Assembly: GCF_009856365.1 (NCBI RefSeq)
Contig: NZ_WMEX01000003.1
Coordinates: 1 to 64,000, forward strand
Length of the DNA stretch: 64,000 nt
Source of the DNA: Vreelandella halophila
Lineage (GTDB): Bacteria; Pseudomonadota; Gammaproteobacteria; Pseudomonadales; Oleiphilaceae
Direction: 5' to 3'
Below are positions 35,266 through 50,710 of the stretch, piece after piece. Each line of letters begins with the position of its first letter. Position 1 is the stretch's first letter. The position numbers were made by a program, and so were the translations under genes. The notes under the pieces are model-generated. The model was not told where the DNA came from. It saw only the letters and a list, made by a program, of their open reading frames with translations, and searched no databases.

Positions 35266-36492
35266 TTACTGCAGGAGGGACAGGACCTGCTGCGGCGACT
35301 GGTTCGCCTGGGCCAGCACCGAGATACCGGCCTGCTGCAGCACGTTCGCCTTCTGCAGTTTGGCCGTCTCGGACGCAAAGTCCGCATCCAGGATCCGGCT
35401 CTTCGACGCCTCCAGGTTCTCAACGTTGTTGTTGAGGTTGGTGATGGTCGACTCGAAGCGGTTCTGGACGGCACCCAGTTCACTGCGGAAACCGTTGATC
35501 TTGTCCAGTGCACCGTCAACGCGAAGGATCGCATCATTGGCATTGGCAACAGTATCAACGGATGCTTCATTGAGGCTGCCATCGTCTACCGCTGCATCTG
35601 TGGTTGCATCACCAAAGTCGCCGGCATCCAAGGGGTTACCCCCGGTGATGGTTGCATCATTGATGGTCAGGTCTTCGGTCGAACGAAGCTCAAAGTCAGC
35701 ATCATCATTCGATGCATCCGGCGAGAAAGAAGCGTATGCAGCATTGCCGAGTTGATCGTTGACTTGACGCGCCACCTCATCAAATACGGCCTGCTCATTG
35801 ATCGCTGCATCACCATCAGCCTGATCAAAAAGGTCATTACTGAGGGTCAAAGACACATCGATCTGGTCACCATCGCCAACCGTTACAGAAAAGGCATCGG
35901 CGCCAGCATCGCCTACGGCATCAGTGAATGTTGCAAAGTTATCTGCATCCAGGTCGCCACTGTCTGCAAAGGCAAGCTGTCCGGTGTCACCGGTACGTGC
36001 ACTGGTATTCAGGTCCACACCGATGGTCTGGCCCGCGTTGGCGCCCACCTGGAAGTCCTGACCGCTGAGGGTGCCATCCAGCACGTTCAGGCCGTTGAAG
36101 TCCGTCTGGCTCGCGATCCGGTCGATCTCTTCCAGACGCTGCTGCACTTCATCATTCAGCGCGGAGCGGTCAGTGTCGTTGTTGGTGGCGTTCGCCGCCT
36201 GTACCGACAGCTCACGTACGCGCTGCAGGTTATTGGTGATCTCATCCAGCCCGCCTTCAGCGGTCTGCGCCAGCGAGATACCGTCCTGCGCATTCCGGGT
36301 GGCCACGTTCAGCCCGCTGATCTGGGATTCAAACCGGGTTGAGATCGCAAGACCCGCCGCGTCGTCCGCCGCGCTGTTGATGCGGAGGCCCGAGGACAGG
36401 CGCTCCAGCGCCTCGTTCTTCGTCGACTTGGACGCGTTCAGCTCGTTCTGGGCATTGATCGATGCCACGTTTGTGTTGATACCGAGTGCCAT
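35266..36492 (-). CDS. fliC: Flagellin, copy 1
   Basis: A 408-residue flagellin. N-terminal D0/D1 (MALGINTNVASINAQNELNAS...ERLSSGLRINSAADDAAGLAIS) and C-terminal D1/D0 (SRILDADFASETAKLQKANVLQQAGISVLAQANQSPQQVLSLLQ) are canonical. The outer domain (about 170-310) is short and very acidic. The protein is identical to that of the gene at 36750-37976; the genes differ at about two dozen synonymous sites, most of them in the first third. Promoter of sigma-28 type about 80 bases upstream. Followed by flaG. Confidence 0.97.
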   Translation of the reverse strand: MALGINTNVASINAQNELNASKSTKNEALERLSSGLRINSAADDAAGLAISTRFESQISGLNVATRNAQDGISLAQTAEGGLDEITNNLQRVRELSVQAANATNNDTDRSALNDEVQQRLEEIDRIASQTDFNGLNVLDGTLSGQDFQVGANAGQTIGVDLNTSARTGDTGQLAFADSGDLDADNFATFTDAVGDAGADAFSVTVGDGDQIDVSLTLSNDLFDQADGDAAINEQAVFDEVARQVNDQLGNAAYASFSPDASNDDADFELRSTEDLTINDATITGGNPLDAGDFGDATTDAAVDDGSLNEASVDTVANANDAILRVDGALDKINGFRSELGAVQNRFESTITNLNNNVENLEASKSRILDADFASETAKLQKANVLQQAGISVLAQANQSPQQVLSLLQ

Positions 36493-36572: not shown

Positions 36573-36599
36573 GTAACGGCAGAACCTGTCTGGTCTTTA
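36573..36599 (-). promoter_or_regulatory. Sigma-28 promoter of flagellin copy 1
   Basis: Minus strand: TAAAGACC-N11-GCCGTTAC, matching the FliA consensus (TAAAGTTT-N11-GCCGATAA) at the key bases. The 5' untranslated region of about 75 bases is nearly identical to that of copy 2, so the duplication included the promoter. Confidence 0.8.
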
Positions 36600-36749: not shown

Positions 36750-37976
36750 TTACTGCAGGAGAGACAGGACCTGCTGCGGCGACTGGTTCGCCTGGGCCAG
36801 CACCGAGATACCGGCCTGCTGCAGCACGTTCGCCTTCTGCAGTTTGGCCGTCTCGGACGCAAAGTCCGCATCCAGGATCCGGCTCTTCGACGCCTCCAGG
36901 TTCTCAACGTTGTTGTTGAGGTTGGTGATGGTCGACTCGAAGCGGTTCTGGACGGCACCCAGTTCACTGCGGAAACCGTTGATCTTGTCCAGTGCACCGT
37001 CAACGCGAAGGATCGCATCATTGGCATTGGCAACAGTATCAACGGATGCTTCATTGAGGCTGCCATCATCTACCGCTGCATCTGTGGTTGCATCACCAAA
37101 GTCGCCGGCATCCAAGGGGTTACCCCCGGTGATGGTTGCATCATTGATGGTCAGGTCTTCGGTCGAACGAAGCTCAAAGTCAGCATCATCATTCGATGCA
37201 TCCGGCGAGAAAGAAGCGTATGCAGCATTGCCAAGCTGGTCATTGACCTGACGCGCCACCTCATCAAATACGGCCTGCTCATTGATCGCTGCATCACCAT
37301 CAGCCTGATCAAAAAGGTCATTACTGAGGGTCAAAGACACATCGATCTGGTCACCATCGCCAACCGTTACAGAAAAGGCATCGGCGCCAGCATCGCCTAC
37401 GGCATCAGTGAATGTTGCAAAGTTATCTGCATCCAGGTCGCCACTGTCTGCAAAGGCAAGCTGTCCGGTGTCACCGGTACGTGCACTGGTATTCAGGTCC
37501 ACACCGATGGTCTGGCCCGCGTTGGCGCCCACCTGGAAGTCCTGACCGCTGAGGGTGCCATCCAGCACGTTCAGGCCGTTGAAGTCCGTCTGGCTCGCGA
37601 TCCGGTCGATCTCTTCCAGACGCTGCTGCACTTCGTCGTTCAGCGCGGAGCGGTCGGTGTCGTTGTTGGTGGCGTTCGCCGCCTGGACCGACAGCTCACG
37701 CACGCGCTGCAGGTTGTTGGTAATCTCGTCCAGCCCGCCTTCCGCGGTCTGCGCCAGCGAGATGCCGTCCTGCGCGTTCCGGGTGGCCACGTTCAGGCCG
37801 CTGATCTGGGACTCAAACCGGGTCGAGATCGCCAGGCCTGCCGCGTCGTCCGCCGCGCTGTTGATACGGAGGCCCGAGGACAGGCGCTCCAGCGCCTCGT
37901 TCTTCGTCGACTTGGACGCGTTCAGCTCGTTCTGGGCATTGATCGATGCCACGTTTGTGTTGATACCGAGTGCCAT
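36750..37976 (-). CDS. fliC: Flagellin, copy 2
   Basis: A 408-residue flagellin whose protein sequence is identical to copy 1, residue for residue. The start context, promoter and about 130 bases of upstream sequence are also shared. It has its own sigma-28 promoter and terminator. The SapC-family gene ends about 150 bases upstream on the same strand, with no clear terminator between, so transcripts of the upstream modification operon could enter this gene. Confidence 0.97.
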   Translation of the reverse strand: MALGINTNVASINAQNELNASKSTKNEALERLSSGLRINSAADDAAGLAISTRFESQISGLNVATRNAQDGISLAQTAEGGLDEITNNLQRVRELSVQAANATNNDTDRSALNDEVQQRLEEIDRIASQTDFNGLNVLDGTLSGQDFQVGANAGQTIGVDLNTSARTGDTGQLAFADSGDLDADNFATFTDAVGDAGADAFSVTVGDGDQIDVSLTLSNDLFDQADGDAAINEQAVFDEVARQVNDQLGNAAYASFSPDASNDDADFELRSTEDLTINDATITGGNPLDAGDFGDATTDAAVDDGSLNEASVDTVANANDAILRVDGALDKINGFRSELGAVQNRFESTITNLNNNVENLEASKSRILDADFASETAKLQKANVLQQAGISVLAQANQSPQQVLSLLQ

Positions 37977-38056: not shown

Positions 38057-38083
38057 GTAACGGCAGAACCTGTCCGGCCTTTA
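38057..38083 (-). promoter_or_regulatory. Sigma-28 promoter of flagellin copy 2
   Basis: Minus strand: TAAAGGCC-N11-GCCGTTAC, optimum spacing, same -10 as the copy 1 and fliD promoters. It lies between the end of the SapC-family gene and the flagellin start. Confidence 0.8.
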
Positions 38084-38130
38084 ATCCGATTTCAGCGGAT
38101 TTTGTAAACGGATGTAACGCCCCGGGGAAA

Positions 38131-38901
38131 TCACTCGCCAAACACGAACAGATCGCTGTTCTGGGAAAACAGCGCATTGCTTGCGCCCTGGGTCGCCGCC
38201 AGCCACAGCTGTGACTGCTGCTTCTCCAGCGTCTCGAAACGCTTCAATGAGACCAGGTGGGAATAGATCAATGGCAGGGCGCCGGGCTCACGCAACCGCA
38301 GAAAGGACTCATCATCCAGAGCCTTGATCGCCGCTTCGTCCACGGCGTATAGCTGGCTACTGGCCGTGCCTGATGCCTGCCCTCGCGGTTGCCAGGGAAC
38401 AAGCAGACCCAGCTCGGCGAGAATGTCGGTCACGGCCCAGGTGGTCTGCTGCTGAGCCCGGATCTGCTCAAGAACCCGGAGCGCTGTACACGTCAGCTCC
38501 GAGGGTTCACCATCATCCTCGAACAGCGCCAGGCTCTCCTCCTCAAGTACGACCTCCCGCGTAAGCGCAGGGTCCTCTTCATCAATGCCGAGAACCGGTT
38601 CACCCTCCGCCGAGTCAATCGAATAGAACGGGTGGGCCCGCAGCACCGCGGGAATGTAGTCAGCCAACCACTTCCCTTTGGCGGATACACAGGGATTCTG
38701 GCCCTGCTGCAATCCCATCAGGGCCATGGGAATCCAGGTTCCGTCCTTGGGCATGAAAACAACCGGGAAAAAACGGGCCGCCTGGGGGATCTCCTGCCCC
38801 CAGACCGGCACCATCATCCGTTCACGCGCAAAGCTGAAATCGCTGTTTTTCTTGAGTCTCAGGTCCGAGTGGCGCGTGGCATCGAGCACCGTAAGGGCCA
38901 T
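38131..38901 (-). CDS. SapC-family protein
   Basis: A 256-residue SapC (PF07277) family protein, recognised by segments FFPVVFMPKDGTWIPMALMGL, AVLRAHPFYSI and EPGALPLIYSHLVSLKRF. The name comes from a Campylobacter S-layer locus; in other proteobacteria the family occurs with halogenase, cupin and TonB-receptor genes. Biochemical function unknown. No signal peptide. The start at 38901 has a G-rich site (AGGGGGA) about 8 bases upstream. It follows the double-PLP gene by 41 bases and so is the last gene of a three-gene operon that runs towards the flagellins. Confidence 0.82.
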   Translation of the reverse strand: MALTVLDATRHSDLRLKKNSDFSFARERMMVPVWGQEIPQAARFFPVVFMPKDGTWIPMALMGLQQGQNPCVSAKGKWLADYIPAVLRAHPFYSIDSAEGEPVLGIDEEDPALTREVVLEEESLALFEDDGEPSELTCTALRVLEQIRAQQQTTWAVTDILAELGLLVPWQPRGQASGTASSQLYAVDEAAIKALDDESFLRLREPGALPLIYSHLVSLKRFETLEKQQSQLWLAATQGASNALFSQNSDLFVFGE

Positions 38902-38942
38902 GATCCATCCCCCTGCTGTCGTCGGCTCCGGCCCGTCCCCCA

Positions 38943-41900
38943 TCACCCCTGAGGGAATCGATGGAGGCAGAGCCGGATCTTGTCAAAAATGATGCCCACC
39001 TGCGCCAGTTCCTCCTGCAGGTGGTCGTGTGTCCTCGCACCATCATAGCACCCATCCGAAATGATCCGGGCGCCCATGCTGATCCGGAGCGCGGACGTGC
39101 CATGCCCCTCAACCGGAACCGGCTGACCAATATGGCAGCAGCGAGCCGCGAGGGCGCGCTCTTCTTCGAAAGTCAGTTCCGGTCGGTCTCCGAGGTCATG
39201 GTTCAACTGCTCATACAACGTTCGGGTCTGCTCCGGCGACAAATAGCCGCCTTCTGGATGCCGGACCAGGAACGGGAATATGCTGCGACGGCGCGAGAGC
39301 TCGCCCCCCTGCATCTCCGAGCGCTGCCACCATGGGCTCGCGGGCTCGAAGACAGGCTCAATATTCGGATCCGCCTGCATCATGCCAATTGTCCCCTCAC
39401 TGAACCGGTCCAGGCCATTCGACCTGAGGGCCTCCGGAACGCGGTAGTAACGCCGGATCTCCGTCAGGGCGGCCTGCCAGCGCATGAGCATTCCGATCCC
39501 GAGGGATGGCCTGGCGTCCGGAAGCAGTGGCTCCCAGAGCCCAAGCTCATTGGAAGCCCGATAATCCGCCAGTCCGCTGGGCAGGTGCCGCCCTTTATTG
39601 ATCAGCCTTTGGGTAAACGCAGCCGGAAAAACAGTGGCACCACTGAAGGGTGGCCCCGTAAAGAACTTGGAACCCGTGAGAAGAAGAATATCGCCCTGCT
39701 CCAGGCAGTATCGAAGATCCGGCGGATCCAGCCGCACCTGGCAGGCATCCATCACCACCTGCAGACGGTCAGGCCATCGGGAACGGAGGCGTTGCAGAAC
39801 CTCCGTGGACGGTGCCCAGCACCCGAGCTTGGATTGGTCCATCGCGTGCAGAATGACCGAGAATCCGGATTCAATCCAGGCGCTGACCGACCGCTCGATA
39901 TCCCGGTCCATCTGTTCCGGCCACTTGAGACGGCCATCATCGCTGCGAAAATCGATTCCCTCATGGTCAATCGCGGGCATTCCGCTCAACCGCTCGCCCC
40001 GCAAAACCGACTGCCCAAGGCAGGTGGTGGCATCAAAGTGGCGGCCGGTGACAGAGAATGGCGTTCCGCTGCCGGTTTCATCGGCGCCACACACGATGCT
40101 CACCCAATTGCCCGGCTGCTCAGTAACAATCGCAGCCACGGCATCCAGTTGGGCGTCGGTCCCGGAAGGCGACAGATGGATGTCCGGTGCCAGATCAGCG
40201 AGATGGAACGCCTCAGCAATCGCCGCCTCAACCTGACGTGCCTGTTCCCCAAGTGGCGTCGCCGATTCCTGGCTGATCACCTGGTGTGTCAGTTGCTGCC
40301 GGTAATCATCAGCCGCACGATAGGCTTTCGACGACACGGAGGTTGCTGTTGACGAGGCAAAGGTGAAGGCCTCCTCCCTTGGCGCCGGCGAACATCCGTA
40401 GCGGTTCAGTCCTGTATCGGGATCAATAACCAGCCGCTCATCCCCATCTTCCATCAGGTGCCAGTAGGTTGCTCTCAGAAGGCGGGAAAAACGGCTGTCG
40501 ATGGTTTCTCCAAGCGACCGGATGGCACCAAGCAGCTCATCCATGTGCCGCTTTTCCGTGCGGTGATTCACGATGGCCACCCGGATGGCGAGTCGACCAT
40601 CGAGGCGGGTGGTCGAAGGTGCCGCGAGCCCCTGCAACGAAAGCTGGGTAACAATGGTCCGGTTCAATCGGTCCAGTTCGGACTGCCCACTCTCCTCACA
40701 TCCCTGGAGCCGGCGGGGAATGTAACGGAGACAGACGATGTTCATCGGAACCGGGGCCAGACACTCAAGATCCGGGCTCTCGTCCACCTGCTGCGCCGTA
40801 TAGGTGGCAAGCTGACAGTGCTCCCTCACAACGGCCGCAAGCTTCTCGCTGCCAACGCCCTGAAGAGTGAACCAGACCTTGAGCGCCAGAAAACCGCGCG
40901 AGAGTTCGGGCCCGAAATCACAGGGCCATGGCGCCCCGGCATCGAGCCCGACCGCCTGCGTCGTGAGGTATTCACTGGGTTCCGAGAACGTCGCCTGGTG
41001 CATTGCCCGGTCGCGTACCAGCAAGCCGCCAACGGCATAGGGAGCCTGGAACCATTTGTGAAAATCAAAAGCTAGGGAGTCCGCGGCCTCAATGCCCTTG
41101 AGGCCCTCCCGGTATTCGTCAACGAGGGCAACCGCGCCGCCAAAAGCAGCGTCCACATGGAACCAGAGCTCCTCATGGGCACAGACATCATGAATCGCGC
41201 CAAGATCGTCGGTGGCCCCGGTGTTCACCGTGCCCACGGTCCCGATCACGCAGAACGGCGTGAACCCGGCTTCCCGATCCGCCCGGATTCTGGCCTCCAA
41301 GGCCGAAGCATCCAGCGTGTAATCATCATGCACCGGAATTGGACGCAACGCATCACTGCCAAGCCCAAGCATCTGAAACGCCTTGGCGACGGAGCTGTGC
41401 CCCTGGGATGAGCAATAGCCAACCAGGGGGGAGGTGCGCCCCTGGACGCCCTCACGCTTGACCGACTGACCGGTACACCACTGGCGTGCCACTGCCAAGG
41501 CTATCAACGTGGCCATGGACGTGCCACTGGTCAGCAAGCCCGAACTGGTTTCGGGGAAACCGAAAAGGTCGCGGCTCCACCGCAGTACCTGTTCCTCAAC
41601 CTCATGAGCGATATGATCCCTGCCCCCGAGATTGTTGTTCAGGAGGGCAGCACAGAACTCCCCGAGGGCACCGTAGAGATTGCCGCCACCATGCACCCAA
41701 CCGAAAAAACGCGGATGGGTGTTGCCGTTGCCATACGGAAGCAGTTCCTCCCGGAAACGGCTGATCAGTGATTCCAGTGACTGGGGCTGGCGCGGCATTG
41801 GCCCGCGGAATGCCTTCCTGACTGCATCCGGCACCGGGCGCCATACTGGCTGACTGTCGAGCCCCTGGTAATGGGTAACCCCCGCCGCGAGTGCGTCACG

Positions 41901-41948
41901 GAATGCTCTGTCCAGTTCCTCCCAGTCTCGTGGGTCAAGATCGGTCAT
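38943..41948 (-). CDS. Fusion of a group II PLP decarboxylase and a second PLP-dependent (class V-like) domain
   Basis: A 1001-residue cytosolic protein with two PLP-enzyme halves. Residues about 1-480 are an aromatic-L-amino-acid/glutamate decarboxylase-type domain: THPRFFGWVHGG, SGTSMATLIAL, PLP-stacking His184 (SQGHSS), Asp266 (HVDAAFGG) and the PLP Lys298 (DFHKWFQ). Residues about 520-1001 form another PLP fold resembling class V aminotransferases/desulfurases: PSGTDAQLDA, an Asp in VVMDACQVRL, and a predicted PLP Lys near 761 (LTGSKFFTGPPFSGAT). Both lysines are present, so both halves may be active. Substrates are unknown. The start (ATGA) overlaps the stop of the ATP-grasp gene, so the two are co-translated. 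I know of no described enzyme with this exact layout. Confidence 0.85.
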   Translation of the reverse strand: MTDLDPRDWEELDRAFRDALAAGVTHYQGLDSQPVWRPVPDAVRKAFRGPMPRQPQSLESLISRFREELLPYGNGNTHPRFFGWVHGGGNLYGALGEFCAALLNNNLGGRDHIAHEVEEQVLRWSRDLFGFPETSSGLLTSGTSMATLIALAVARQWCTGQSVKREGVQGRTSPLVGYCSSQGHSSVAKAFQMLGLGSDALRPIPVHDDYTLDASALEARIRADREAGFTPFCVIGTVGTVNTGATDDLGAIHDVCAHEELWFHVDAAFGGAVALVDEYREGLKGIEAADSLAFDFHKWFQAPYAVGGLLVRDRAMHQATFSEPSEYLTTQAVGLDAGAPWPCDFGPELSRGFLALKVWFTLQGVGSEKLAAVVREHCQLATYTAQQVDESPDLECLAPVPMNIVCLRYIPRRLQGCEESGQSELDRLNRTIVTQLSLQGLAAPSTTRLDGRLAIRVAIVNHRTEKRHMDELLGAIRSLGETIDSRFSRLLRATYWHLMEDGDERLVIDPDTGLNRYGCSPAPREEAFTFASSTATSVSSKAYRAADDYRQQLTHQVISQESATPLGEQARQVEAAIAEAFHLADLAPDIHLSPSGTDAQLDAVAAIVTEQPGNWVSIVCGADETGSGTPFSVTGRHFDATTCLGQSVLRGERLSGMPAIDHEGIDFRSDDGRLKWPEQMDRDIERSVSAWIESGFSVILHAMDQSKLGCWAPSTEVLQRLRSRWPDRLQVVMDACQVRLDPPDLRYCLEQGDILLLTGSKFFTGPPFSGATVFPAAFTQRLINKGRHLPSGLADYRASNELGLWEPLLPDARPSLGIGMLMRWQAALTEIRRYYRVPEALRSNGLDRFSEGTIGMMQADPNIEPVFEPASPWWQRSEMQGGELSRRRSIFPFLVRHPEGGYLSPEQTRTLYEQLNHDLGDRPELTFEEERALAARCCHIGQPVPVEGHGTSALRISMGARIISDGCYDGARTHDHLQEELAQVGIIFDKIRLCLHRFPQG

Positions 41949-43891
41949 GATGGCTCATCGGACTCCGCAGGTACTTCCGCCGCTTCCCGGATCTGCACCC
42001 GTTCTGGATGCCGTCCATACCAATCACGGACTTCCCTGGACTTCAGCTCTGCCGCTTCCGGCCCCATAGCCTGCCCCAGGAAGTGCTCCAGGGCATCCTC
42101 TGGCCCCGCTATAACCGCTTCAACACGACCATCGCCCAGGTTGCGGACCCAGCCATTCAATGCATGCCGGTGCAGCTCATGCCGCACCCACTGCCGGAAC
42201 CCCACCCCCTGGACACGCCCACTGAACAATAGCTGGATGGCGCGGCTCGGCGCATCACTGCTGTCAAACCCATCTTCCGTCGCAGGGGTTGATTTACCCG
42301 CTGGCAACTGGAATGCCCAGGGTTCAATGCCGGCCTTCTCACAGAAATGGTCGTGCACGGCGACGATCACTTTCCGTGCCGCCTCATTTTCCGGTGTGTT
42401 CTGGTCCGTATCGATCAGGAAGCTGCGCATACTGGCATTGGCTTCAAATATGACGATATCCCCCTTGTGCCGGGGATCCGTGCAGACCGCAAAGTCCACC
42501 CCGAAATACCCGAGATCCAGGCGCTGAAGGGTGCGTTCAAGATTCTTCCAGACCCCGGGTGCGAAGGTTCCTTCCGGATCTTCCAGGAAGTCCTGCTCAT
42601 CGTCATAGAGCCAGGGGAACTTCTGGAAGGTGCGATTCGACTCACCAATATGCACGTTCCAGTCGCCGTCATGCCCCACCCGCAGGTGAATCGGGTAAAG
42701 CCGCCCACCCACCATGAAGGCCCGATATTTGGGATGCAGCCGATGATCCGGCGCACGCGGGTCGGTGTAGGTCACGTCGTGATACTGGAGCAGGTAGACT
42801 TCAGCCGGTTCAACAAGGCGAACCTTGACGTTGGTGGGGTCCTCGATGAGGTGCATGTTGCGGCCATTCTGGAAACCGGCAGCGCGCATGATCACCGGTG
42901 CCTCAAGCTCGTGCTGTTCCACGGCCTCGCTGATCCGGTCACCGATTTCCTCTTCAAGGCGCCCCAGAGGGATGCTTCTGGGCACCAGAACGCCCTCCGC
43001 GTCACCCAGGCGCTGGGCATTCTCTTCCCGAGTGGTTCTGAGGACTTCGCTGGGATGGTTGATAACCGGCACGTTCATGCGGTCACAGAGCCATTCCGCC
43101 TTGTGCAGGGCCTCGGTGCATCGGCTGGCATCCGTGATCCCGTTGTAGATGATGTCCACCTCGGGAATCTGTTTGATCAGCTCGGGGTGATCATCCAGCC
43201 GATCCACACTGAAGCGGTAGCGCGTAACCGATTGGGCATCGAGCATCTGAGCCAGGTTGTTGTGCCCCTCAACCGTCGCGAGCACGCCATCCTGCGGTCT
43301 ATAGCGGTAGCTGCCGCTGGCCACCGTTCCAAGGACCAGGACCCTCATACGCTCTGTTTCATTTGCCTGATTGGCACTGAGAGGCTGTACAAGAGCGGAC
43401 TCACTGGCCCAATGCTGGCTCAGGGACTCCTTCCCCAACAGCCCGTAGAGGCCGGCAAGCACGCGCGCGGCTGCAGCGGGTTTTTCCACGGCAGCATCGA
43501 CCCAATGACGCGCGGCGCACAGCGCATCCCAATGGGCACCCGCTTTCGCAGCCTGCCCGATGTACCGTTCCAGTAACGCTTCGTCATTCGGCGACACGCG
43601 CAAGGCTCTGGCAAATGTTTCCGCCGCCTCCTTCGGAACACCGCGTGCAATCTGCATCTCACCCAGATAGCGAAGCGCTTCCGGATCCGTAGGCTCAATC
43701 TGGAGTACAGCGCGAGCAGCCTTGACAATGGCCTCGAGTCCCCTAGCTCCCCGCATGGTCCGCTTGGCGTCAAACACCTCTGTTGCGGGCGGCGCTTTGA
43801 GACTGTAAGCCTTACCATCTCTGTGATTGCCGCCCCCCCTTCCCTTCGAACGTTTGTTCACGGCTACCTTTCTGTCTTTCGCTTTCGCCAT
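41945..43891 (-). CDS. TPR / ATP-grasp ligase / acylphosphatase fusion
   Basis: A 648-residue protein. Order: Lys/Arg-rich disordered N terminus (1-45); TPR-like helical repeats (about 50-180; DPEALRYLGEMQIARGVPKEAAETFARAL); a pre-ATP-grasp fold beginning MRVLVLGTVASGSYRYR; an ATP-grasp domain (about 285-520; INHPSEVLRTTREENAQRL, PVIMRAAGFQNGRNMHL, metal ligands in IVIFEANASMRSF); and a C-terminal acylphosphatase domain (about 555-640) with the catalytic Arg and Asn of GRVQGVGFR and GWVRNLGDG. ATP-grasp ligases make amide bonds through an acyl-phosphate; an attached acylphosphatase could hydrolyse stalled intermediates or proof-read. The substrate is unknown. The start at 43891 has GGAGGATGGA directly upstream. 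First gene of the operon. Confidence 0.82.
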   Translation of the reverse strand: MAKAKDRKVAVNKRSKGRGGGNHRDGKAYSLKAPPATEVFDAKRTMRGARGLEAIVKAARAVLQIEPTDPEALRYLGEMQIARGVPKEAAETFARALRVSPNDEALLERYIGQAAKAGAHWDALCAARHWVDAAVEKPAAAARVLAGLYGLLGKESLSQHWASESALVQPLSANQANETERMRVLVLGTVASGSYRYRPQDGVLATVEGHNNLAQMLDAQSVTRYRFSVDRLDDHPELIKQIPEVDIIYNGITDASRCTEALHKAEWLCDRMNVPVINHPSEVLRTTREENAQRLGDAEGVLVPRSIPLGRLEEEIGDRISEAVEQHELEAPVIMRAAGFQNGRNMHLIEDPTNVKVRLVEPAEVYLLQYHDVTYTDPRAPDHRLHPKYRAFMVGGRLYPIHLRVGHDGDWNVHIGESNRTFQKFPWLYDDEQDFLEDPEGTFAPGVWKNLERTLQRLDLGYFGVDFAVCTDPRHKGDIVIFEANASMRSFLIDTDQNTPENEAARKVIVAVHDHFCEKAGIEPWAFQLPAGKSTPATEDGFDSSDAPSRAIQLLFSGRVQGVGFRQWVRHELHRHALNGWVRNLGDGRVEAVIAGPEDALEHFLGQAMGPEAAELKSREVRDWYGRHPERVQIREAAEVPAESDEPS

Positions 43892-44244
43892 TCCATCCTC
43901 CGGCAGTAGCTGCACCACCTTAACTATAGCCGGCCTATCTCACACCCTGACCTTCAGGGTCTTATTCACAAAGGCTTGTGCAAGCTGGTTCAGTTTTACA
44001 TGTCAATGATAGTCAGCGGCAGCCGCGTCATGCCACTTTCTTCTTCCTGGCTCCGAACTGAAGTCCCAGATGCCACTTGGATTCAGCGGCGGGGATTGAT
44101 CGATTCTGATTTTCCGGTCAGAGAAGCATAGTCACAACTTTGCGGACGGGCTAATATCGGACAGGTTTTTGTACACGTGGAGGTCATAGTCATTCTGACC
44201 TTCCCGATTTGACTATGGGGATACTGCGAACCAGGACCTGCCAG
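43892..44244. other. Divergent intergenic region between the ATP-grasp fusion and the formyltransferase-like gene
   Basis: About 350 bases of lower-GC sequence that must hold the promoters of both divergent transcripts. I see a TTGACA on the minus strand but no convincing -10 at the right distance, a small ACCCTGA/TCAGGGT hairpin near 43951, and a repeated CATAGTCA motif near 44130 and 44185. No gene is supported. Confidence 0.4.
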
Positions 44245-45156
44245 TTGACTACGCGCATCGCTCTCTTCGGCTACTCCGATTTAACCCGTCAGTGCGCCAG
44301 GGCCCTGCAGCAACTCGGGCACCAGATCGAGCTGTTCTGCCCACTCGAAGATGAGGCCTTGCTGGTTCACTACGGCCTCAACAGACTTGATTTACCGGTT
44401 CACTGGTTTGAAAGCATCAAGGATCCGTCTTTGCCAAAGGCATTGGATGCATTTGAACCGGACCTGATCCTTTCCATCATTTTCAACCACAGCCTTCCAG
44501 CGCCCGTCCTACAAAAGGCCAGCATAGCCGCGCTCAACATTCACCCAGCCCCTCTGCCCGCAGTGCGCACAGCGGCGGTCTGGTACTGGCCTCTGCGACT
44601 GGGCCTGACTCAGTCGGAGGTATGCATCCACCACCTGACTTCGGTGATGGATCAGGGGCCTGTGATTCTGCGCTTTCCCTTCCGGCTGCGTGAGTCTGAA
44701 ACCCAGGGTACCCTCACTTTGCGGCTCGTTGATCTGGCTCCAAAGGTCATGAAACAGCTTCACAATCTTCTGACCACCGGCCCAATTCCAGAAGGTGAGC
44801 AGCAGAGTGAGGGCACCACCTACCCGTCGCTCCGGGAAGCGGACCTCTGGATCGATTTCAATGAATCCGCAGCATCCATCCGCAACCATGTGCGCGCCTG
44901 CACACCCTACCATCCTGCCCAAGCGCGCTTCCGTGGGCAGACCATTGCCGTTCATGAAGTTGGGTCTTTAACCAGCCAGCTGCCCCCGAACCGATCACCA
45001 GGTGAGCTGATTGTGGAAAATGGGCTATGGCTGACCTGCGGCGATAGTCTGGCGCCCATGACGGTTCTGGAAATTCCCGGCGAAGGTGTATTCAGTGGCG
45101 AATGCTTTGCCGAGCTGTTCAACCTGGAAAGCGGGGAGTCCCTGAACGCTGGCTAG
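44245..45156 (+). CDS. Formyltransferase-like protein (Fmt/ArnA N-terminal type)
   Basis: A protein of about 303 residues with the formyl-transferase fold used by methionyl-tRNA formyltransferase, ArnA and sugar N-formyltransferases. Catalytic-type residues are visible: LNIHPAPLPAVR (His; the usual SLLP is replaced by APLP) and MDQGPVI (Asp). A C-terminal Fmt_C-like part follows (ATIAVHEV-type region, about 200-290). With no peptide-deformylase or tRNA context, an amino-sugar or amine acceptor is more likely than tRNA. The start is uncertain: a TTG at 44245 has AGGA upstream; an ATG at 44215 has no visible ribosome site. Confidence 0.75.
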   Translation: MTTRIALFGYSDLTRQCARALQQLGHQIELFCPLEDEALLVHYGLNRLDLPVHWFESIKDPSLPKALDAFEPDLILSIIFNHSLPAPVLQKASIAALNIHPAPLPAVRTAAVWYWPLRLGLTQSEVCIHHLTSVMDQGPVILRFPFRLRESETQGTLTLRLVDLAPKVMKQLHNLLTTGPIPEGEQQSEGTTYPSLREADLWIDFNESAASIRNHVRACTPYHPAQARFRGQTIAVHEVGSLTSQLPPNRSPGELIVENGLWLTCGDSLAPMTVLEIPGEGVFSGECFAELFNLESGESLNAG

Positions 45157-48670: not shown

Positions 48671-48706
48671 CCGCAAAACGACTGAACAACGAGATAGGGG
48701 ATGATC

Positions 48707-50710
48707 ATGCAGGCGCAGACCCAGCTGGAACAGGTAACCCGCGAACAGGAAGCGGCCATGGCCCGTCGCCTGCTTCAGGCGAATGAGCTCTACCGTTTTG
48801 CCAACAGCCCGGAGACAGAGCCGGCCATGCGCGGCCACGCCCGCCAGCAGGTGCGCGAGGCCCTGGATGTGGTTCTCGGTGCCCAGCCGGAACACCCGGA
48901 GGCCCTGAACCTCCTCGGCCGTGTCGCCATGGACGAGGGGCGCCTCGAGGAGGCCGGCGAGGTGTTGGGCCGGGCCCGGGTTGCAGCTCCGGATTCCGGC
49001 CAGGTTCTGGCCAACCTGGGCTATCTTGCGCTGATGCGTGAGGAGGCGGAACAGGCCGAAGCTCTGTTTGACGAAGCCCTGACCCATGAGCGCCAGTCCG
49101 CCCCTGCCTTCGCCGGTAAGGCCCACGCCCTGCGCCAGCAACAGCGGTTCGATCAGGCCTACCTGCATTACCGCACGCTGCTCGATCACGGCGCTGAATG
49201 GGATTCCGTCTACGCCGGCATGCTCGAATGCGCTCGCCACCTGGACGTGCACCAGGCCGACAGCGCCCTTGCACAGGATGCCATCCGCCTCCTTTCCCAC
49301 CCTGGCCTGCCCCATCAGGAGCTGAGCCGCTTCGTCACCAACCTGCTGCGCCAGCAGTACGCGCAGGAAATGGCGCCGGGCGACTGGTTGCTGGATGCGG
49401 TCTGCGCGGACGAACTCCTGCTGCTGGCACTGGAAACCACACTGCTGGCGGACGCCGAGCTGGAAAGACTGATCACCCAGGCCCGCCGTGCCCTCCTGCT
49501 GGAGGTCCGCGACACCGGCGAGCTGTATGAATCCCGCCAGCGCCTGGCCATGGCGCTGAGCCGCTACGCCACGCGCACCGGTTTTGCCCAGGTGGTTTCC
49601 GAGGAAGAGGATGCCTTCATCCGGGAACTGGATGCCAACCTCAAGGTGGAACTGCGTGACAGCTTCCAGCCGGAGGAAGTCGCCGCCGGGCTGATCATCC
49701 GCAGCCTCTACGGCGCTCTCTTCCACCAGAGCTATGCCCAGCACATCGGTCGTCTCGCCCTGGCGGACTGGCCGGAGGGCATGCAGCCACTGATGGCGGA
49801 GACCTATTACCACAAGGCCGATGAAGAAGCCTACAAGCAGCAGTTCCAGGAGAAGCAGGACGAGCTGGCCCTGGCGCGCGCGGACCTGCCCCACGCCTGG
49901 CCCTGCTGGCATAACCTGCGCATCCACCATGAGCAGCCGCTCAAGCAGGAACTGGAACAGAGCCTGGGCATCGACACCAGCGCCTGGCCCGAGACCGTGC
50001 GCATTCTGGTAATCGGCGCAGGCTCCGGCCAGCACGCCATGGAACTGGCGAACTACTTCACGGACGTGGAGGTGGTCGCGGTGGATGAGAACCTGGCGGG
50101 CCTGGCCCACGGCAACCGCCTGGCACAGGAGAAAGGCCTGCAGAACATTGTGTTCTGGCCCTATTCACTGGCCACGCGTTTCATCCAGGACGGCAACCAG
50201 GTGCAGATGGTGGAAATCCGCCAGTTGCCGTCAGAGGGCCATGACGGCACACCCATCAAGACGCTCGCCCAGCAGGCGCTGGGCAGCGGCGGGCTGCTGC
50301 ACATCCACACCGGTGAGCACGGCGCCAGCCGCGTGGATGTGGCACTGCGCCGGATGATGGAGCGTCACAGACTGCAGCCGACCACGGAGACACTGCGGCG
50401 CCTGCGCCGGATGATCCTGAACAACCCGCAGCATGAGGCCTACCAGGAACTGCTGAACGAGCCGGATTTCTACGCTACGGCCGGGTGCCGCAAGCGCTGG
50501 TTCTTCCCGGAGGACGGCAACCAGCTTCACGCGCTGATGGACAACCTCAGCAGTGAGGTGGACTGGAAGCTTCTGCGGGCCCGGGATACGGACGGCGCCA
50601 ATCTGGCCACCGCGCCCGTGGTGCGCCAGCTCCAGGCCCAGGCGTTCGGTTCCGGCACCCAGAGCCTGGTCGGCCAGGGGCTGAGCCTGTACTTTCAGCG
50701 CAGGCGCTGA
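48707..50710 (+). CDS. TPR / SAM-dependent methyltransferase fusion
   Basis: A 667-residue protein. The N-terminal part holds TPR repeats (about 55-180; HPEALNLLGRVAMDEGRLEEAGEVLGRAR and two or three more). A long helical middle follows, then a class I methyltransferase fold from about residue 430 (RILVIGAGSGQHAMELANYF, with acidic VEVVAVDEN about 25 residues later), and a C-terminal helical segment. The target is unknown, but it sits directly behind a flagellin on the same transcript, so flagellin or its glycan is the obvious candidate. The ATG at 48707 has AGGGG six bases upstream; the ATG at 48701 is too close to it. Confidence 0.82.
   Translation: MQAQTQLEQVTREQEAAMARRLLQANELYRFANSPETEPAMRGHARQQVREALDVVLGAQPEHPEALNLLGRVAMDEGRLEEAGEVLGRARVAAPDSGQVLANLGYLALMREEAEQAEALFDEALTHERQSAPAFAGKAHALRQQQRFDQAYLHYRTLLDHGAEWDSVYAGMLECARHLDVHQADSALAQDAIRLLSHPGLPHQELSRFVTNLLRQQYAQEMAPGDWLLDAVCADELLLLALETTLLADAELERLITQARRALLLEVRDTGELYESRQRLAMALSRYATRTGFAQVVSEEEDAFIRELDANLKVELRDSFQPEEVAAGLIIRSLYGALFHQSYAQHIGRLALADWPEGMQPLMAETYYHKADEEAYKQQFQEKQDELALARADLPHAWPCWHNLRIHHEQPLKQELEQSLGIDTSAWPETVRILVIGAGSGQHAMELANYFTDVEVVAVDENLAGLAHGNRLAQEKGLQNIVFWPYSLATRFIQDGNQVQMVEIRQLPSEGHDGTPIKTLAQQALGSGGLLHIHTGEHGASRVDVALRRMMERHRLQPTTETLRRLRRMILNNPQHEAYQELLNEPDFYATAGCRKRWFFPEDGNQLHALMDNLSSEVDWKLLRARDTDGANLATAPVVRQLQAQAFGSGTQSLVGQGLSLYFQRRR

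Follow-up and report, generated by a model that had tools for sequence, protein, structure and literature searches.

A candidate non-sugar flagellin modification island beside twin flagellin genes of Vreelandella halophila

Genes of the block and the adjoining flagellins

The window, that is, the whole stretch of 64,000 nucleotides of Vreelandella halophila DNA that was analysed, contains a run of five genes on the minus strand in the order TPR/ATP-grasp/acylphosphatase, PLP fusion, SapC and two flagellins. The first three, together with a formyltransferase-like gene, were the subject of the original prediction, and all four are present as open reading frames with the packing and orientation described there. 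The TPR/ATP-grasp/acylphosphatase gene (41945..43918, minus strand) is overlapped by 4 bases by the gene encoding a fusion of two PLP domains (38943..41948, minus strand), referred to here as PLPN and PLPC. The SapC-family gene follows (38131..38946, minus strand; PF07277, E 6e-59) and has two possible starts, a GTG (38946..38131) overlapping the preceding gene by 4 bases or an ATG (38901..38131) leaving a gap of 41, the latter being the value given previously. The formyltransferase-like gene (44209..45156, plus strand) diverges from the three minus-strand genes.

The first open frame begins at 43918, with the ATG at 43891 as the likely start since homologues begin there, yielding a product of 648 amino acids. 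A TPR region was identified by Pfam, as was an acylphosphatase domain at the C-terminal end (E 3e-17) in which the arginine and the asparagine of the acylphosphatase motif, both catalytic, are present. The middle region received no Pfam name from single sequences. A profile built from 11 diverse relatives matched the ribosomal S6 modification protein 3vpd among PDB sequences (E 2.6e-5), and 6 of the 11 matched the RimK family profile with a best E value of 1.3e-5, under the curated cut-off; one relative reached 23 bits against R2K_3, for which the cut-off is 26.3. Asp475 and Glu492 are invariant in 33 of 33 relatives and position 494 is Asn or Asp in 32 of the 33, so that the conserved acidic metal-ligand pattern of RimK-like ATP-grasp enzymes (Asp ... 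Glu-x-Asn/Asp) is present. In an AlphaFold model of the whole protein the ATP-grasp region was too low in confidence to add anything. The weak family profiles, the PDB profile match and the two invariant residues uphold the predicted identity, and the middle region is most likely a RimK-like ATP-grasp domain. No glycosyltransferase was found among the matches listed from Pfam and family profiles. The homologues in Chromohalobacter (L002:8971-9855) and Vreelandella (L009:8981-9865) have the acylphosphatase replaced by approximately 294 amino acids without a Pfam match.

The PLP fusion product is 1001 amino acids in length, with PLPN (K298) at the N-terminus and PLPC (K761) at the C-terminus. 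PLPN matched Pyridoxal_deC (PF00282, E 5e-61) and is of the group II PLP decarboxylase type, K298, D266 and H184 being invariant in 31 of 31 relatives; its best equivalog, diaminobutyrate decarboxylase, scored 182 bits, far below the cut-off of 900. No credible Pfam family was found for PLPC in 8 members scanned, one of which weakly matched the cysteine desulfurase and EgtE profiles (E approximately 1e-3), nor did a sequence profile find a solved relative in the PDB (best E 0.23). The AlphaFold model of PLPC was fair (pLDDT 77.6, pTM 0.83) and matched PLP-enzyme folds by Foldseek, the closest match being a carbon-sulfoxide lyase; we take the fold class to be that of the fold-type-I PLP enzymes. 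K761 and D734 are invariant in 35 of 35 relatives, and the expectation of two PLP active sites is borne out by the invariance of both lysines.

The twin flagellins (36750..37976 and 35266..36492, both minus strand; Flagellin_N and Flagellin_C) are identical as proteins and share 1202 of 1227 nucleotides (98% as DNA), and the promoter region is duplicated along with them. Each has its own sigma-28-like site (38058-38083 and 36574-36599 respectively) with no mismatches to the pattern used; across the window, 10 matches with at most 2 mismatches were obtained where 3.8 were expected. Ahead of the TPR/ATP-grasp gene the best site matched 9 of 12 positions, a score reached by 103 of 300 shuffles, and a flagellin-type promoter for the operon was rejected since no sigma-28 site exceeded the shuffles. 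The three genes do read straight towards the flagellins as originally noted, but this does not imply a common transcript, each twin having a sigma-28-like promoter of its own.

A slot with exchangeable contents between flagellar flanks

The DNA on either side of the block is syntenic with that of two sibling species, Vreelandella utahensis and Halovibrio salipaludis. One flank carries an HD-GYP gene, the formyltransferase gene, a flagellin and a TPR-methyltransferase gene, the other FliC, FliD and FliS. DNA similarity to V. utahensis ends at 44246 and 37999 and that to H. salipaludis at 44458 and 38118; the bounds of the slot (38119..44245, 6127 bases) were set from the outermost similarity ends, 44246 for V. 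utahensis and 38118 for H. salipaludis. In the window the 6.1 kb slot holds only the TPR/ATP-grasp, PLP fusion and SapC genes, without nucleotide-sugar genes. The corresponding slot of V. utahensis, of approximately 12.6 kb and likewise situated between the formyltransferase gene and FliC (L164/L165), encodes an integrase-core (transposase-like) protein, a nucleotide-sugar dehydratase-type enzyme, a nucleotidyltransferase, two DegT-type aminotransferases, a methyltransferase, a sulfotransferase, WbqC and an HMW1C_N protein, the nucleotide-sugar, sulfotransferase and HMW1C_N island occupying L164:10291-19900. From its place and its genes we infer that this sugar-type island acts on flagellin. 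The slot of H. salipaludis is almost empty: it spans approximately 1.7 kb, in which a single reading frame reaches 110 amino acids or more. The three-gene block thus stands where a relative has a sugar-type island.

A TPR and methyltransferase-like protein encoded 3' of the third flagellin (48701-50710), with 88% and 95% identity in the two siblings, is possibly another flagellin modifier.

The formyltransferase-like product matched Formyl_trans_N (E 2e-13) and Formyl_trans_C (E 3e-8) and carries the N-x-H and D motifs, which are catalytic in formyltransferases. Copies 59% and 77% identical occupy the same place in the two siblings and, being part of the syntenic flanks, the gene belongs to the flank. 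It was rejected as a part of the module, and hence of the modification system in which the original prediction had placed it, since a formyltransferase-like gene was found in 0 of 54 loci examined and flanks the slot in both siblings, even where the slot is almost empty. SapC, also counted as part of the system at first, was found by tblastn to adjoin the ATP-grasp gene in only one of the 54 loci and was rejected as a core part; it is an occasional neighbour of that gene. That single locus (L119:8967-11338), where SapC adjoins a TPR/ATP-grasp gene, lies in a genome (G893) in which no Flagellin_N match was found.

Distribution of the module and its linkage to flagellin

Genome searches extended cumulatively to as many as 1749 genomes, repeats counted. 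The core of the module consists of three enzyme parts, PLPN, the RimK-like ATP-grasp and PLPC, which are conserved as a unit. PLPN and PLPC are fused in the window; elsewhere the parts are separate neighbours or are fused in other pairs. Separate PLPN, ATP-grasp and PLPC genes occur together in, for example, loci L109, L110, L115, L127, L130, L132, L134 and L135, while L128 encodes a fusion of ATP-grasp and PLPC, and L142 one of ATP-grasp and PLPN. Fusions of PLPN to PLPC were found in Chromohalobacter, Vreelandella, Halovibrio, Halospina, Desulfurivibrio and Ectothiorhodospira, with no ATP-grasp of the module type in the 10-kb flanks of the Desulfurivibrio and Ectothiorhodospira fusions. The module is rare: among 390 genomes of its order the full-length PLP fusion was found only in the source genome, and PLPC matches were obtained in 25 of 398 genomes of a phylum sample and 3 of 289 of a class sample. 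Other genomes of the genus have one copy (three genomes) or none (one genome, 68% complete), the source genome two.

Two variants of the gene arrangement were recorded. In L111:4939-11494, PLPC and PLPN lie beside a different ligase, a tandem ATP-grasp protein also ending in an acylphosphatase. On a plasmid of Paraburkholderia sp. FT54 (L160:11941-14306) a related ATP-grasp gene overlaps one annotated as serC, which may point to the substrate.

Linkage to flagellin was assessed using one representative per genus-level lineage, with the expectation calculated from flagellin positions under the assumptions of uniform placement and independent lineages. Excluding the copy in the window, the module lies within 10 kb of a flagellin in 6 of 18 lineages where 0.34 would be expected (P approximately 5e-7). 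The value becomes 1.4e-5 for five lineages if the two Halomonadaceae are treated as one event, and 1.6e-6 when three plasmid loci of Rhizobium are included among the unlinked. In Chromohalobacter and Vreelandella aquamarina, FliC lies directly upstream of the module on the same strand. All five genomes of genus group g499 are linked, one by a flagellin fragment at a contig end only, and in two of them (L109, L110) the module lies between FlgE-/FlgL-like genes and flagellins of 759 amino acids. Both module-bearing genomes of g402 are linked, as are g642 and g699. Both flagellin domains were confirmed in the neighbouring proteins of the four loci checked (L110, L129, L134, L141). When flagellin linkage was placed as a label on the PLPC tree, 6 changes were needed, 5 of them forced by supported branches. 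The controls gave no linkage, SapC being near flagellin in 0 of 19 places (two places in G893, a genome without a flagellin match, left out) and NeuB in 0 of 12.

Several groups of loci were left out of the 18 lineages. Genomes with PLPC only comprised G1198 (flagellin approximately 9.7 kb away, so that counting it would add a linked case), G1053 (approximately 14 kb), the unlinked G1004, G1202 and G1159, and the fragments G961, G964, G980, G991, G998, G1025, G1062, G1081 and G1119. Genomes with a distant ATP-grasp relative only included G617, G035, G831 and G595. Also left out were the ATP-grasp and SapC genes of G893, the named loci with PLPN only (L010-L020) and further species of genera already counted. 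G1295 was counted with two of the three parts, no PLPN being found within 20 kb. For Desulfurivibrio and Ectothiorhodospira the assessment covered the 10-kb flanks, and for G588 part of a contig.

The original prediction called for a survey of gene neighbourhoods and named as refuting it homologues residing mostly in non-flagellated genomes beside unrelated genes. Co-occurrence with flagellin is above chance, yet the refuting observation holds in part: 12 of the 18 lineages, like a second copy in the source genome, have other genes as neighbours, although a Flagellin_N match was obtained in 42 of 45 genomes checked.

The second TPR/ATP-grasp and PLP-fusion pair of the source genome (contig C16, L051:11510-17685) is 52% and 59% identical to the first and adjoins a DUF6160 gene, in a stretch common to Halovibrio, Halospina and V. 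utahensis. Most proteins around it share 88 to 100% identity with their H. salipaludis (L004) counterparts, the exceptions being one piece at 85% and one doubtful frame at 71%. In Halospina the pair is bracketed by DUF6160 genes, and no Flagellin_N match was found in the genome (G1248).

Interpretation and comparison with known systems

The position of the module at the sugar-gene slot of a sibling and the presence of its relatives beside flagellins in several distant bacteria suggest that the genes probably decorate the flagellum. The target is probably flagellin or another surface protein. We favour, with a probability of roughly 0.45, the reading of the three-gene block as a non-sugar flagellin modification island of a kind so far undescribed. 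The proposal of a flagellin or surface modification system thus survives in its core, carried by the linkage above chance, the slot with a sugar-type island in a sibling and the enzyme identities, and falls away for SapC and the formyltransferase. By title and abstract, no description of a PLPN/ATP-grasp/PLPC module was found in the literature, with a mention in Iyer et al. 2009 (ATP-grasp amidoligases) possible; literature joining flagellin, ATP-grasp and pyridoxal consisted, by title, of archaeal genome studies. The available portions of the literature on the context of the module include related ATP-grasp genes in flagellin modification clusters.

The known modifications of flagellin are mostly sugars, with some methylation. 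Group II decarboxylases produce amines, ATP-grasp ligases form amides via acyl phosphates and acylphosphatases hydrolyse acyl phosphates. In the proposed scheme, PLPN would produce an amine by decarboxylating an amino acid. PLPC, acting either on that substrate or on another derived from an amino acid, would rework it by chemistry of the lyase or transaminase type. The RimK-like ATP-grasp would activate a carboxylate as an acyl phosphate leading to an amide, while the TPR domain would dock flagellin in the cytoplasm before export and the acylphosphatase domain of the same protein could break down acyl phosphate that goes astray. We infer flagellin as the acceptor, the amide bond and the identity of the amine and of the product from these enzyme classes and from the gene neighbourhood. 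Ligation straight onto the protein has somewhat less than an even chance of being correct. The second, paralogous pair would act on a different surface protein (DUF6160); flagellin may not be the sole target, a general surface-protein role or a multi-use small molecule being further candidates. In its fullest form, put forward tentatively, the scheme describes a third chemical kind of flagellin modification in addition to glycosylation and methylation, in which a TPR-guided RimK-like ligase would attach an amino-acid-derived amine through an amide bond to carboxylates of flagellin, either on side chains or at the C-terminus. The enzyme set would be exchanged between species as a substitute for glycan islands, and a paralogous set would be aimed at the DUF6160 protein. 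If true, bacteria would exchange not only the sugars of the filament surface but its chemistry as such, which would bear upon phage and host recognition and upon filament assembly, and would provide a role for a PLP domain without a Pfam family.

Alternatively, the genes may encode a small-molecule pathway yielding a free amide (an osmolyte, signal or similar) that often resides in flagellar loci without acting on flagellin. The 12 unlinked lineages accord with this, as do two neighbourhoods: in Rhizobium tumorigenes the sole full triad of the three Rhizobium plasmid loci neighbours porin, MBL-fold and amino acid transporter genes on a 25-kb plasmid stretch that gave no flagellin match, and in L115 an ABC-transporter permease gene lies directly downstream of the module. 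We nevertheless regard such a pathway as unlikely, given that linkage to flagellin is far above chance, that the block is exchanged with a sugar-type island at the flagellin slot and that the TPR domain is a protein-binding type of module.

It is a little less likely still that the ligase decorates a glycan later placed on flagellin, in the manner of the amide groups of amino sugars, the module then being an adjunct to a glycosylation pathway whose genes lie elsewhere in the genome. Precedents lie in the ATP-grasp gene of the Shewanella sfm cluster, in which the flagellin mass shifts once SO_3265 is deleted, and in that of the Clostridioides difficile type B locus, as described in the available portions of the two papers (PMC3765264, PMC5207246). 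A formyltransferase gene flanks the slot, and NeuB was detected in 7 of 19 genomes searched, including genomes of two flagellin-linked genera. Against a glycan, no NeuB (PF03102) match was obtained in the source genome (96.9% complete), in the three siblings checked, in Chromohalobacter or in V. aquamarina, and the three genes of the slot include none for nucleotide sugars (the genome-wide sugar search covered NeuB only). The lack of a NeuB match in the source genome discounts a standard nonulosonate (Pse/Leg) cluster, in agreement with the original prediction. That the block is a mobile passenger of a hypervariable slot, unrelated to flagella, is very improbable: the integrase-core gene in the V. 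utahensis slot and the variable copy number within the genus would fit, but several other lineages also have the module next to flagellins, where chance would give 0.34 linked lineages.

The preferred reading, a non-sugar modification of flagellin, has partial counterparts in several systems. The sfmABCDE operon of Shewanella resembles the block in that SfmE (ATP-grasp_4) belongs to a flagellin modification operon and its deletion shifts the flagellin mass, but the operon has PseI-like, reductase and methyltransferase genes and the available text names no PLP enzyme of the module kinds (PMC3765264). To the extent of the portions available, the other genes of both the Shewanella and C. difficile clusters differ from the module (PMC3765264, PMC5207246). 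Caulobacter FlmG, which couples a flagellin-binding TPR domain to a glycosyltransferase, is a precedent for a TPR-guided flagellin modifier; both are modular cytoplasmic proteins pairing TPR and catalytic domains, with TPR-flagellin binding only predicted here, whereas FlmG, in the part of the account available, transfers pseudaminic acid by a GT-B domain and the window protein has an ATP-grasp instead (PMC7591256). The V. utahensis island shares the position between the formyltransferase gene and FliC but differs in its sugar chemistry (dehydratase, nucleotidyltransferase, DegT aminotransferases, HMW1C_N protein). The ATP-grasp part has weak profile matches, below curated cut-offs, to the RimK/LysX ligases, from which it differs in being fused to TPR and acylphosphatase domains and paired with two PLP domains. 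RimK itself acts on a protein carboxylate. Although it is an archaeal cofactor pathway with no known TPR domain or link to flagellin, the synthesis of methanofuran resembles the module in its chemistry, the PLP decarboxylase MfnA making an amine that the ATP-grasp ligase MfnD joins to a carboxylate.
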